This document shows positions 7,151 through 11,140 of a DNA stretch of 11,331 bases, one piece after another. Position 1 is the first letter of the stretch, and each line of letters starts with the position of its first letter. The translations under genes and the position numbers were made by a program. Source of the DNA: an uncultured bacterium. Lineage in GTDB: Bacteria; Patescibacteriota; Minisyncoccia; Phycocordibacterales; UBA9973. The notes beneath the pieces were generated by a model. It was not told the origin of the DNA. It did not search any database and saw only the letters and a list, made by a program, of their open reading frames with translations. The stretch is taken from assembly GCA_903825265.1 (NCBI GenBank), contig CAIJZW010000045.1, positions 1 to 11,331 on the forward strand, in the 5' to 3' direction.

Positions 7151-7180
7151 CCAAACCCTAAGCAAAAGCTTAGGGTTTGG
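7151..7180 (+). terminator. Perfect 13-bp hairpin between rpoC and dnaG
   Basis: Bases 7151-7163 pair perfectly with 7168-7180 around an AAAA loop (7164-7167); the tip is AAGC-AAAA-GCTT. It is thermodynamically strong but is followed by TCATTATTAAAAA and not by a U-run, so it is not a textbook intrinsic terminator. It ends only 14 bases before the dnaG ATG and begins 9 bases after the rpoC stop. It could be a partial terminator, a 3-prime stabiliser of rpoBC mRNA, or a processing site that lets dnaG-rpoD be expressed at a lower level than rpoBC. Confidence 0.7.
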
Positions 7181-7194
7181 TCATTATTAAAAAT

Positions 7195-8979
7195 ATGTCA
7201 TCATCTGTAGAGAAAATCAAAGAAAGACTTTCCATTGTTGATGTTATTTCTTCATACATACAAGTAGAACAATCAGGAAAGAATTTTAAAGCAAAGTGTC
7301 CTTTTCATAATGAAAAGACACCGTCGTTTTTCATATCTCCAGATAGAGGTACTTATTATTGTTTTGGATGTGGAGAGAAAGGGGATATATTTTCTTTTGT
7401 TGAAAAATTTGAAGGAGCAGATTTTATGGGGTCACTTAAATTATTAGCAGAGAAAGCAGGTGTAACTTTGGAATATGATAAAAGTAACAATAAAGAGAAA
7501 GATAAAAAAGAGCTTTATTTTGAAATTTTAGAAGAAGCTACAAAATTTTTTGAAAGTAATTTTGATAAAGAAACTACTCCTCGTGCTTATTTATTAAGTA
7601 GAGGTATTATTGATTCAACAATTAAATCTTTTCGTATTGGTTATGTAAAAGATGAGTGGAGATCTCTTAGTGACTATCTTACAAGTAAGGGTTACAAAGT
7701 CGAAGATATTGAAATGGTTGGTCTCATTAAAAGATCTGAAAGTGGATTTTATGATCGCTTTCGTGGACGTATTATATTTCCAATAAGTGATTCAAGTGGA
7801 AGAGTCATAGCGTTTTCAGGAAGAATTTTTTCTGCTCAAGGGGGACCTGCTTTAGGAGGGGCAGAGAACCTTGAATCTGTTGCTAAATATTTAAATAGTC
7901 CTGATACGCCACTTTTTAACAAATCAAATGTCTTATTTGGTATAGATAAGGCAAAAAATTCTATAAGGAAAAGAGGGTATAGTATTATAGTAGAAGGACA
8001 GATGGATTTGATACTTTCTCATCAGGCAGATTTTACAAATACAGTAGCAGTATCGGGAACCGCTTTTACTGATAGTACTACAGACGGTGAATCAAAAATA
8101 AATAATTTAGGTTTGATAAGAAGAATAACTTCTAATATAATTTTTGCTTATGATGGTGATTCTGCTGGTGTGAGAGCAGCAAGTAGGTCAGCTATGATAG
8201 CTTTAGCATTAGATATGCAAGTAAAGGTAGCTTGTCTTCCTGAAGGTAAAGATCCCGCAGATATAATAATGGAAAATGGAGATACTTGGAAAAATATTAT
8301 TAAAAATGCAGTTGATATAATAACTTTTCATTTAGATAGAATTTGTAGAAATACGAATGACATAAGGATAAGAGGTAAACAAGTTCGAGATATTGTTTTT
8401 CCATTTTTAGTATTAGTGAAAAGTTCTATAGATAGGTCCTCTTATATCTCTATGATTTATTCTAAAACAGGAATACCAGCTAATGCAATTGTTGAAGATT
8501 TTGAAATATATGAACGTAATCATAATGTAAATAATAATATAGTTCTAAAGAATGATTCTGTGGAGAAAAAGAAAGAATTAATTCCTCGTAGAGATAGTTT
8601 AGAGAAGAGATTGTTTGGAATAATATTTTGGCAAGAGAAGAATGATATAGGTATAAAAAAAGAAAATATTTTTAAATCATTAAAAGAAAAGATAGGGGAA
8701 GATGAGTTTGAGAGAATCTATGAATTACATACACCTTTTGCTGAAATTCTCGCTATTGAAACTGAAGATTGGTATAATAATAAGACAAAAGATATTCCTC
8801 GGGATGTAGAAGAAATAATAGTGAACTTAGAAGAAGAAATTTTGAAGGAAAGATTATTTTTACTGAAGGATAAAATGAATAAGAGTAAAAATCAAGATGT
8901 CGATCTCGATTCACTACTAAAAGATTTACAAAAAATAGGAGAAAGATTAGAAGATATTAAAACTTATAGATCAAAATAA
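7195..8979 (+). CDS. dnaG: DNA primase
   Basis: DnaG lays down RNA primers for replication and works with the DnaB helicase. I take the ATG at 7195 as start, giving 594 residues and the usual N-terminus leading into [19 protein letters not shown] at 7177 would add six residues but lies inside the hairpin stem. The CHC2 zinc-binding site is C35, H38, C56 and C59. The TOPRIM catalytic core has [10 protein letters not shown], the acidic EGQMD motif with E267, and AYDGDSAG with D320 and D322, followed by GKDPADI. The second motif is usually EGYMD; Gln replaces Tyr here. Short insertions occur between the core motifs (for example [12 protein letters not shown]). After residue about 435 comes a helical, charged C-terminal region with [10 protein letters not shown], matching the DnaB-binding domain in general form but divergent. 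Arginine is mostly AGA/AGG, unlike the CGT-rich rpoBC, consistent with lower expression. rpoD begins 4 bases after the stop. Confidence 0.96.
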
Positions 8980-8983
8980 TTTT

Positions 8984-10315
8984 ATGATAAAAAATATTAA
9001 ACAAAAAGCAAAAAAGATAATTTCCAAGAAAAAAGTTGTTGTAAAGAAACAGATTAAAAAGATTGTAAAAAAAGTGGTTACTAAAAAAACTCCTTCTAAA
9101 AAGATTATAAAAAAAGTTGTTAAAAAAGTAATAGCCCCTAAAAAGAAATTGGTTAAAGTTTCAAAGCCAAAAATTAAAGTTTTAAAACCAAAAGCTTCTA
9201 CTAAACCTATTTCTAATTCAAAGAAAGATCAATTAGAAAAGAAGCAGAAAGATGAAGAAGCAAAAGCTGTTGATATGATAGAAAAAGGTAAGAAGAGAGG
9301 CTTCGTAACCTATGATGAAATTATTAAAGAATTTCCAGATATAGAAACAAATATTCTTTTTTTAGATGAGTTATATGACCGTTTTTCTGTTGCAGGTATT
9401 GATGTACTTGAAGGAGGTAACCTTCTTGATACTAGTGGTGATGTAGAAAAGTTAGCTCTTAAATATAGTAAAGATGCGAAGACTTACGATTCTATTCAGA
9501 TGTATTTGAAAGAAATAGGTCAATATCCCTTAATTGCTGCAACTCAAGAAAGAGATTTAGCTAAGAGAATTGAGAAGGGAGATATAGAAGCTAAAAATCT
9601 TCTTGCTCGTGCAAACCTACGTCTTGTTGTTTCTATTGCTAAGAAGTATGTAGGACGTAGTTCAGACCTTACCTTACTTGATCTTATTCAAGAAGGGAAT
9701 CTTGGTTTATTTAAAGCTGTTGAAAAATTTGATTGGACGAAAGGTTACAAATTCTCAACTTACGCTACTTGGTGGATTCGTCAATCTATAACTCGTGCTT
9801 TGGCTGACCAATCTCGCACAATCCGTATCCCAGTTCATATGGTTGAAACTATTTCTAAATATAAGCAGGTTGTTAGACGTTTATCACAAGATCTTGGGCG
9901 TGAACCTCTTGTAGAAGAGATAGCCACAGAAATGAATTTAGAAGTAGAGAAAATTCATATTATAGAACAGATTAATCAAGAGACAGTTTCACTTGAGCAA
10001 CCAATAGGAGATGATGATGAAAAATCTACACGTGGAGAATTTATTCCTGATGATAAAATACTTCGTCCTGATCAAGATGCTTCACGTCGTATTCTTTCAG
10101 ATCAAATAAAAGAAGTTCTTGAAACTTTAAGTCCAAAAGAAAGAAAAATTCTAGAGCTTCGTTATGGATTGAATGATGGAGTTCAGCATACACTTGAAGA
10201 AGTAGGTCAAGAATTTGGAGTTACTCGTGAACGTATTCGTCAGATTGAAGCTAAGGTTCATGAAAAGCTTCGTAATAATGAAAAAATTGCTCGTTTAAAG
10301 AATTATTTTGATTAA
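8984..10315 (+). CDS. rpoD: RNA polymerase primary sigma factor (sigma-70/SigA type)
   Basis: This is a group 1 sigma factor, 443 residues. Residues 1 to about 90 form a very basic tail: 31 of the first 70 residues are Lys and there is no Asp or Glu before D82. Residues about 98-145 match region 1.1 (GFVTYDEII onward), the autoinhibitory domain typical of primary sigmas. Region 1.2 begins near D169, region 2 spans about 205-285 with [12 protein letters not shown] and the -10-melting [17 protein letters not shown] segment, and region 3 starts with PVHMVE, where H285 and E288 correspond to the E. coli residues that read extended -10 promoters. The region 3.2 finger is at [16 protein letters not shown]. 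Region 4.2 is the helix-turn-helix at about 402-423 with [10 protein letters not shown], the -35 reader. The ATG at 8984 is favoured because it sits 4 bases after dnaG and the basic tail is an open frame; M98 (9275) is a possible alternative start that would omit the tail. The dnaG-rpoD order matches the macromolecular-synthesis operon. Confidence 0.96.
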
Positions 10316-10320
10316 ATATA

Positions 10321-10359
10321 TACTCCCCAGATAGGGGCTAAGCCCCTATCTGGGGAGTA
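10321..10359 (+). terminator. 18-bp perfect palindrome after rpoD
   Basis: Bases 10321-10338 pair perfectly with 10342-10359 around a 3-base TAA loop. The stem is GC-rich (CTCCCC, GGGGC) in otherwise AT-rich DNA and starts 5 bases after the rpoD stop. Neither strand has a T-run after it, so it may act as an mRNA 3-prime end stabiliser or an auxiliary stop ahead of the following terminator. It could also be a copy of a dispersed palindromic repeat, which this window alone cannot show. Confidence 0.7.
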
Positions 10360-10361
10360 AT

Positions 10362-10418
10362 AAATAGAGATATTAAAAAACCATAAGCAAAGCTCATGGT
10401 TTTTTAATATCTCTATTT
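10362..10418. terminator. Bidirectional intrinsic terminator between rpoD and the DsbA-like gene
   Basis: A 57-base palindrome: 10362-10384 pairs with 10396-10418, followed inward by one A-C mismatch and three more pairs, with an AAA loop at 10389-10391. The core hairpin (CCAT/ATGG plus AGC/GCT) is flanked by six A on the left and six T on the right, so it gives a hairpin plus U6 when read from either strand. This is the expected arrangement between two convergent genes and would end both the rpoD transcript and the minus-strand transcript. Confidence 0.88.
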
Positions 10419-10426
10419 GATTGTTT

Positions 10427-11140
10427 TTATAGTTGATCTGTTACTGTCTCTGCTGATGTTTTAAGTAATCCAAATAATAATTCAGAATATTTCCAGAATG
10501 CATCATTGCCTTTTATTTGAGATACACATTCAGCTGCAACTAACTTTTCAAATGAATTTTGGTGTATAGGCCAGTGACGGTATACCCAAGCTATATTTCC
10601 ATTTGATTCAGTAACTAATTTATTTAAAGTAGCTTGGAATGCTTTACAGTAAGGACATTCATAATCTGAATATTCTACTATAACTATAGGAGCATCAATG
10701 CTACCAATGATATGATCTTCTGCTGTGACAGCTGAGATTTCTCCTTTATATTCGTTTGTTACTTTACCTGCATTTACTTCATCGATTAATTTTTTAACAT
10801 TTTCAATTGAATCAGCTCCGCGGATTTCAGTTTTTACTCCATTCTTTCCTATGATAACACTATAAGGAGTCCCTCTCTGGTTTTCAGGAACAGCTTTCAT
10901 TGCACTTTCTACACTAGTACCGATACTTTTGCTTAAAGCATCTTTATCTATATTAGACATACAAGTTGCAAGTTTATCTTTACTTACTCCTACTTGTGCT
11001 GATAATGTTTTATCTTCTTTACTACTATCTACTTTACTATTACTTCTACCACTAGTTATTAAAATAGCTAACATTACAAGGAAACCTGCAACTATTATTG
11101 CTGTAGGAGTTGTAATTTTTTGTTTTTTATCGTTTTCCAT
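10427..11140 (-). CDS. Membrane-anchored DsbA-like thiol oxidoreductase, apparently circularly permuted
   Basis: The 237-residue protein has a charged N-terminus, one hydrophobic segment at about 13-30 (signal anchor, no clear cleavage site), then an extracytoplasmic part. It likely catalyses disulfide formation or exchange outside the membrane. The domain order is inverted relative to DsbA. Residues about 45-125 resemble the usual C-terminal half: helical segment with LATC (C60), the cis-proline loop RGTPYSVII (T91, P92), two strands, and a final helix (VKKLIDEV). Residues about 137-237 resemble the usual N-terminal half: EDHIIGSIDAP, strand IVIVEYSDYE, active site CPYC (C162, C165), strand WVYRHWPIH, AAEC (C205) and the first helices, ending at DQL. 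Nothing resembling a second cis-proline loop follows CPYC; the frame stops 9 bases before the terminator palindrome. Together the halves make about 180 residues, one normal domain. Alternatives are a degenerate tandem repeat or an assembly artefact. The start ATG lies at the predicted transcription start of an extended -10 promoter. Confidence 0.9.
   Translation of the reverse strand: MENDKKQKITTPTAIIVAGFLVMLAILITSGRSNSKVDSSKEDKTLSAQVGVSKDKLATCMSNIDKDALSKSIGTSVESAMKAVPENQRGTPYSVIIGKNGVKTEIRGADSIENVKKLIDEVNAGKVTNEYKGEISAVTAEDHIIGSIDAPIVIVEYSDYECPYCKAFQATLNKLVTESNGNIAWVYRHWPIHQNSFEKLVAAECVSQIKGNDAFWKYSELLFGLLKTSAETVTDQL

Follow-up and report, generated by a model that had tools for sequence, protein, structure and literature searches.

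Results

The stretch of DNA analyzed here (the window; 11,331 nucleotides of contig CAIJZW010000045.1, assembly GCA_903825265.1, from an uncultured bacterium of the patescibacterial lineage UBA9973) carries, at 10427..11140 on the minus strand, a dsbA-like gene that starts with ATG and encodes a membrane-anchored, circularly permuted protein of 237 amino acids, as read from the list of open reading frames (ORFs), the homologues, and the predicted structure. It is convergent with an rpoD-type sigma factor gene (8984..10315, plus strand; from the ORF list, named from its sequence), the neighbor that marks the locus shared with relatives. The genome is a 515-kb draft with a completeness of 77.9%, and named relatives of the protein include Candidatus Nomurabacteria and Paceibacterota.

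The initial annotation had described the two halves of the DsbA domain as standing in swapped order, and the parts are indeed arranged as anchor, C60 in LATC, cis-proline motif TPY, linker, CPYC, C205, and an end at DQL; all of the following coordinates are on the minus strand. The N-terminal membrane anchor helix (residues 11-29; 11054..11110) is a helix of the predicted model, in a block with a predicted local distance difference test score of 52-58, and is preceded by lysines in what looks by eye like a positive-inside arrangement, which suggests that the domain lies outside the membrane. Next comes the second half of the DsbA domain (residues 45-122; 10775..11008), which matches the C-terminal part of canonical relatives, that is, of those with the standard half order. 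It holds the end of the helical domain with C60 (codon at 10961..10963), the cis-proline loop RGTPY, two strands, and the last helix (model helices 54-63 and 66-80, strands 93-98 and 103-107, and helix 112-124). The alignments place a linker from the old C-terminus to the old N-terminus at residues 123-140 (10721..10774), between the matches of two half-domain hidden Markov models (HMMs). The first half of the domain stands last (residues 137-237; 10430..10732), as identified by a Pfam Thioredoxin_4 match and the model, and comprises a strand, the CPYC helix, a strand, and the start of the helical domain with C205 (codon at 10526..10528), ending at DQL (model strands 143-145 and 152-158, helix 163-178, strand 183-189, and helices 196-210 and 212-224). 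The active-site codons C162-P-Y-C165 are at 10646..10657. As in other DsbAs, the CXXC motif sits at the start of a helix that follows a strand (152-158, then 163-178), and the helices of the helical domain are present in the model, but they are divided between the two ends of the chain. The standard order of the DsbA family (PF13462 and PF01323), strand, CXXC helix, strand, helical domain, cis-proline loop, strands, helix, is rotated, and we therefore file the protein as a homologue of the family in circularly permuted form and not as a standard member. Like the engineered permutant 1UN2, it has new termini in the helical domain, joined old termini, and a fold that is kept in the model.

Residues 140-222 match the Thioredoxin_4 profile at positions 3-87 of 165 only, the first half of the profile; since a standard Pfam profile sees half of the domain, permuted enzymes are easily mistaken for fragments. 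A homologue search over 5.8 billion proteins (E ≤ 1e-3) returned 745 matches, the best 120 of which were examined, and the native and rotated searches together retrieved 131 proteins, the window's own included. The half-domain HMMs find the swapped order in all 131, and C60, C162, C165, C205, and TPY (residues 91-93) show no variation in the 131-row alignment. The rotated sequence as query matched 1508 proteins, and because the best 120 were permuted throughout (all in the set P0001-P0131), the rotated search showed no canonical relatives. Canonical proteins of the same genus (G058, G070, and G045) are matched by the window profile in three pieces, in the order anchor (about 1-36), about 115-223, and about 43-120, and the anchor (profile stretch 1-36) is common to both forms. 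When the mature domain was compared with canonical relatives by hhalign, the native order gave 100 columns (score of 328), whereas rotation at residue 126 gave 179 columns (score of 424); rotation points 126 and 135 had the top scores among 13 tried. Rearranging the sequence thus turns a half-length into a full-length match, which is what the initial annotation had anticipated, and the orthologues of the same order that it expected exist as 130 other database proteins, some of them on contigs of over 200 kb. In the predicted structure, residues about 51 to 220 form one confident domain, so that the separate first part named by the initial annotation as a refuting outcome did not appear; the model aligns to 1UN2 across residues 45-229 with 12% identity, and 1UN2 has the best template modeling score among 50 listed Foldseek rows. 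Sequence order, profile rotation, predicted fold, and the canonical control all identify the product of the window gene as a natural circular permutant of the DsbA family.

The rpoD slot houses both orders. Genes were typed by the order of the two half-domain HMMs, which gave 58 permuted and 74 canonical genes among 132 DsbA genes; half order was used for the counts because a profile match can run across the junction in a gene that is canonical by half order, as in G104 (L073). On the retrieved DNA, 45 of the 132 classified genes lie together with rpoD (26 permuted and 19 canonical), and DsbA is convergent to rpoD in all 45, at a distance of 4 to 2187 bp (within 300 bp in 31); the slot is shown for these 45 genes only, since the flanks of the others are often too short or the gene lies elsewhere. 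Within the window's genus, 20 of 24 genomes have only the permuted form, 3 only the canonical form, and 1 both (A1 profile), and the two orders coexist in 5 of the 115 genomes sampled (G063, G087, G222, G243, and G326). The permuted and canonical forms seem to stand in for each other in the same function, the coexisting copies of these five genomes notwithstanding.

Permuted copies are present in at least 30 of 379 sampled genomes of the phylum and in at least 17 families (phylum sample plus a family-wide search of 99 genomes; weaker matches are not listed). The best 80 of 575 loci in named genome records hold 25 permuted and 58 canonical genes. All 19 permuted genes that carry a taxon name are from Patescibacteria (Nomura-, Colwell-, Kaiser-, Pace-, and Parcubacteria and WWE3), the other 6 are from unnamed uncultured bacteria, and the proteobacterial loci in this set are all canonical, although no dedicated survey of other phyla was made. 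One window-type permuted DsbA, P0104, bears the source label Candidatus Woesearchaeota archaeon, probably owing to a misplaced contig, or else to transfer.

For the trees, the halves were put in standard order, and 130 of the 132 rows were used, without L007 (truncated frame) and L137 (weak match). A quick tree of these rows has 19 order changes, at least 8 of which are forced by supported branches; the trees of the N half and the C half have 22 changes (3 forced) and 23 changes (5 forced), respectively. The half-trees concur on L041, L024, and L056, and both put L033 and L034 amid the same canonical subfamily. A careful tree of 45 rows has 6 order changes, all of them forced; a single permuted clade appears in 0 of its 200 bootstrap trees and is rejected by the approximately unbiased (AU) test with a p value of 4.4e-32. 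In 15 pairwise AU tests with uncorrected p values, g17, L033/L034, f34, and f60 were mutually separate (p between 3e-4 and 1e-90), the window's clade was separate from L033 and from L034 (p of about 1e-4 each), and L033 was separated from L034 with a p value of 0.02. By these tests, the separateness of four permuted lineages is firm, and a count of five or six is likely. Examples are permuted L034, whose halves share 73% and 59% identity with canonical L134 and 35% and 26% with the window protein, and permuted L041, with 77% and 63% to canonical L021 and 52% and 32% to the window protein. The trees thus point to a swap that happened several times independently in Patescibacteria, which the initial annotation had not foreseen. 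They cannot tell gain from loss, and the canonical order is taken as ancestral since it is present in other bacteria.

The break points differ between families. In 69 permuted proteins of the L033 subfamily, the chain ends 24 residues past a helix landmark, compared to 9-13 residues in the window's family (12 in 104 of 131); over all permuted loci, the tail measures 0-24 residues. All of these break points lie between two conserved cysteines, the C205/C60 pair, which is present in 70 of 70 complete permuted proteins if a shift of a few alignment columns is allowed; 71 of 71 permuted proteins have the TP of the cis-proline motif. When the canonical relatives are aligned as a profile with Wolbachia alpha-DsbA1, the pair falls on two cysteines of that enzyme, of which a mutant titled C97A/C146A is in the PDB. 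Two cysteines in the helical domain of alpha-DsbA1 are reported to form a further disulfide, which takes no part in catalysis and slows oxidation by DsbB (PMC3839904), and in MtbDsbA a second disulfide, Cys140-Cys192, joins helices H2 and H5 of a four-helix bundle (PMC3792642). By homology to the second disulfide of alpha-DsbA1, the pairing of C60 with C205 that the initial annotation had suggested gains support, and given the homologous disulfides of both enzymes, the predicted C60-C205 disulfide probably already closed the loop before it was broken.

The initial annotation had also proposed that the gene arose by tandem duplication of a DsbA domain and loss of the outer halves; here the scanned flanks hold no trace of such an origin. 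A six-frame search beside 83 permuted copies, up to 3 kb on each side (best 26 rows per half), turned up no duplication remnant; its one convincing match is a DsbA paralogue beside L057 that is separate and intact, and a weak match lies within the interrupted L007 gene, in its first part. Among the ORFs of the retrieved loci, none has two copies of a half-domain; in the canonical ORF L209, the C-half match is split.

Discussion

In our model, which we hold with good though not full confidence, the window protein is a thiol oxidase of the DsbA family and a natural circular permutant that came from a canonical dsbA in the rpoD slot by a recurrent swap, with a disulfide staple and a retethered helical cap. 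The starting point would be a dsbA of canonical order that already occupied this slot behind rpoD and in which the two domain halves were exchanged inside the gene, by whatever molecular route, while the N-terminal anchor was kept; the wide spread of the canonical order suggests that the direction was from canonical to permuted. The C205-C60 staple would tie the new termini to each other and render the loop tolerant of breaks. The anchor would now sit on the helical cap near the active site and not on the N-terminus of the thioredoxin fold, and with the tether moved in this way, the active site should face the membrane differently.

The enzyme would put disulfides into exported proteins via CPYC and the cis-proline loop and would be reoxidized by DsbB and/or VKOR. 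Genes for both DsbB and VKOR are present in the window's genome, and the window protein is the only Thioredoxin_4 protein above the cut-off in this genome, which is 78% complete. Furthermore, the best PDB sequence match of the canonical relatives is 4N30, titled DsbA2. It is most likely that the window protein is the main extracytoplasmic thiol oxidase, tethered via its helical cap, and the simplest reading is a predicted tethered DsbA oxidase recharged by DsbB or VKOR. It is imaginable that the permuted fold is right and the protein is nevertheless an isomerase, a reductase, or a substrate-specific foldase and not a general oxidase: CPYC also occurs in isomerases such as ScsC, and ScsC chains are among the half-length fold matches of the model. 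In view of the partner genes, the lack of a second Thioredoxin_4 protein above the cut-off, and the match to DsbA2, we regard this as a minor possibility, albeit one to be kept in mind, and prefer the oxidase. A switch of partner tied to the permutation was also considered and dropped, since DsbB or VKOR occurs in genomes of either order (no statistics were applied) and no link was seen.

Whether dsbA of Patescibacteria, which often lies behind rpoD, is a hot spot of permutation is, in our judgment, an evenly balanced question. The gene would have undergone at least four to six rotations in place, with the breaks spread along a single loop that an older, non-catalytic disulfide staples, and each time the tether would have been moved and the active site turned relative to the membrane.

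Several of our observations weigh against recurrent permutation of a stapled oxidase. The half-trees, built from few columns, conflict on the neighbors of several lineages, among them L031, L055, and L027, and the C-half tree sets L033 closest to L034, so that these two may go back to one event. The 45 rows of the careful tree were chosen from the 130 after the first tree had been seen. The window's clade is set apart from f60, f34, and g17 with p values of 0.004, 0.009, and 0.048 only, uncorrected for 15 tests. With L033 as query, 2925 matches were obtained, the best 120 of which comprise 69 permuted proteins (L033's own included) and 51 canonical ones, and a tree of this subfamily (135 rows) has 5 changes, 3 of them forced; however, one permuted clade is not rejected (AU p of 0.23), and several changes within the subfamily were therefore dropped and the subfamily counted as one lineage. 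The cysteine pair also occurs in 122 of 129 canonical proteins and, being nearly universal there, was rejected as a predictor of permutation. By E-value, 1UN2 ranks only 8th in the Foldseek search, below half-matches to natural DsbAs. Neither DsbB nor VKOR was found in 4 of 24 genomes of the genus, which are fragmented assemblies, and the absence of duplication remnants beside the 83 permuted copies has to be added.

Some of these points would also fit one or a few ancient permutations, after which the rotated gene spread and gene conversion with canonical copies present locally overwrote its halves, with the result that the trees only look like many origins. Both orders do meet in the five genomes named above, and the separation of the window's clade from other permuted lineages is weak. 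Furthermore, in G087 (genus g17), the permuted gene in the rpoD slot (L023, 8430-9125) has a body that is 79% and 71% identical to the type of the window's genus, L010, while its anchor reads by eye like that of its own genus; the 60-residue identities (48% over 31 and 40% over 57 residues) do not decide the matter, and the gene is perhaps a product of recombination or transfer at the rpoD slot. Overwriting, however, requires separate conversions of the anchor, the N half, and the C half in several lineages, the break points are unlike between families (24 versus 9-13 residues), and four permuted lineages stand firmly apart. We therefore consider it unlikely and favor independent swaps.

Still less can be said for two separate domains, a truncated DsbA behind an unrelated N-terminal domain. 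Pfam recognizes only the second part above its cut-offs, but homology to canonical relatives identifies the first part as the C-terminal half that the rest of the protein lacks, the match becomes continuous upon rotation of the profile, and the model is a single domain that aligns to the engineered permutant over residues 45-229; we reject this explanation as highly improbable. An artefact of assembly or annotation, in which two fragments were joined in the wrong order, could be suspected in a single draft genome with a contig end about 190 bp beyond the gene, but is dismissed in view of one open frame with a confident single-domain model, the same order in 130 other proteins on independent contigs, and permuted copies in the single-contig genomes G068, G243, and G337.

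Among known systems, a close counterpart of the natural permutant is the engineered circular permutant of E. coli DsbA, cpDsbA_Q100T99 (PDB 1UN2; PMC2395249); on engineered DsbA permutants, Hennecke 1999 is cited in PMC12667903 and PMC3281007. In contrast to the window protein, 1UN2 is a laboratory construct without an anchor. To our knowledge, it also has no second disulfide. The canonical patescibacterial DsbAs at the rpoD slot (for example, L013, L018, and L021) have the same kind of anchor, CXXC, the cis-proline, and the second cysteine pair; they are homologous to the window protein in both halves and occupy the same chromosomal position but differ by the standard order of the halves. Wolbachia alpha-DsbA1 (3F4R) and DsbA of M. 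tuberculosis (Rv2969c) share the fold and the second disulfide, which, unlike in the window protein, spans an unbroken loop in a domain of standard order. Bacillus BdbD, Pseudomonas DsbA2, and ScsC are homologous by sequence to the CPYC half of the window protein and to the canonical relatives over the whole domain; they have the standard order, and their alignments to the window model cover no more than about half of it.

Natural reorderings of other kinds are known. The DsbA-like domain TRXL1 of UGGT is reported to be rearranged differently (PMC7687155): in TRXL1 (PF18400), the helical subdomain stands complete ahead of a thioredoxin fold that is unbroken and lacks CXXC (PMC4255179). The window protein, by contrast, has a helical domain that is divided between both ends, and its model runs helices, strand, strand, helix, strands, CXXC helix, strand, helices. 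DsbB and VKOR have been proposed as circular permutants of each other (PMC4555120); unlike the window protein, they are membrane helix bundles related by one ancient event and do not have the DsbA fold. No report of a natural DsbA permutant was found among the literature matches listed, a search whose coverage leaves out most subscription journals, and the available portions of PMC4255179, PMC8366655, and PMC7949104 do not mention a permuted DsbA.

Circular permutation has been studied in the laboratory with DsbA as a model, and it seems that nature has carried out this experiment on more than one occasion. Repeated permutation occurs in other enzyme families as well, such as the DNA methyltransferases. 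If the hot-spot reading is true, dsbA of Patescibacteria is a natural, replicated experiment on the permutation of one enzyme. Related genomes in which one slot holds either order make it possible to test directly how permutations come about, what makes one loop tolerant of breaks, and how the shift of the tether affects an oxidase.

A few further genes and features deserve mention. In G080, the permuted dsbA (L007, 1498-1971) is interrupted by a TGA stop codon. Second permuted paralogues in the window's genus (L032, 1760-2713, in G072, and L035, 8072-8968, in G030; 317 and 298 amino acids, respectively) begin with what resembles a signal peptide and carry a long spacer in place of the anchor. 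In the permuted DsbA of L158 (3848-4714), CPFS replaces CPFC, and the second catalytic cysteine is missing. G087 and G063, which belong to different genera, each have two canonical DsbA genes, similar between the two genomes and spaced by a few kilobases (L016 and L017), perhaps a shared mobile cluster, in which one gene belongs to a subfamily without the second cysteine pair. In the window itself, the plus strand carries rpoB, rpoC, dnaG, and rpoD, named from their sequences, and the dnaG-like ORF (7177-8979) is listed with a TTG start. Two inverted repeats lie side by side at 10322-10415, in the gap that separates rpoD from the convergent dsbA; seen by eye, they look like a two-way terminator, and the second one has runs of A and T.
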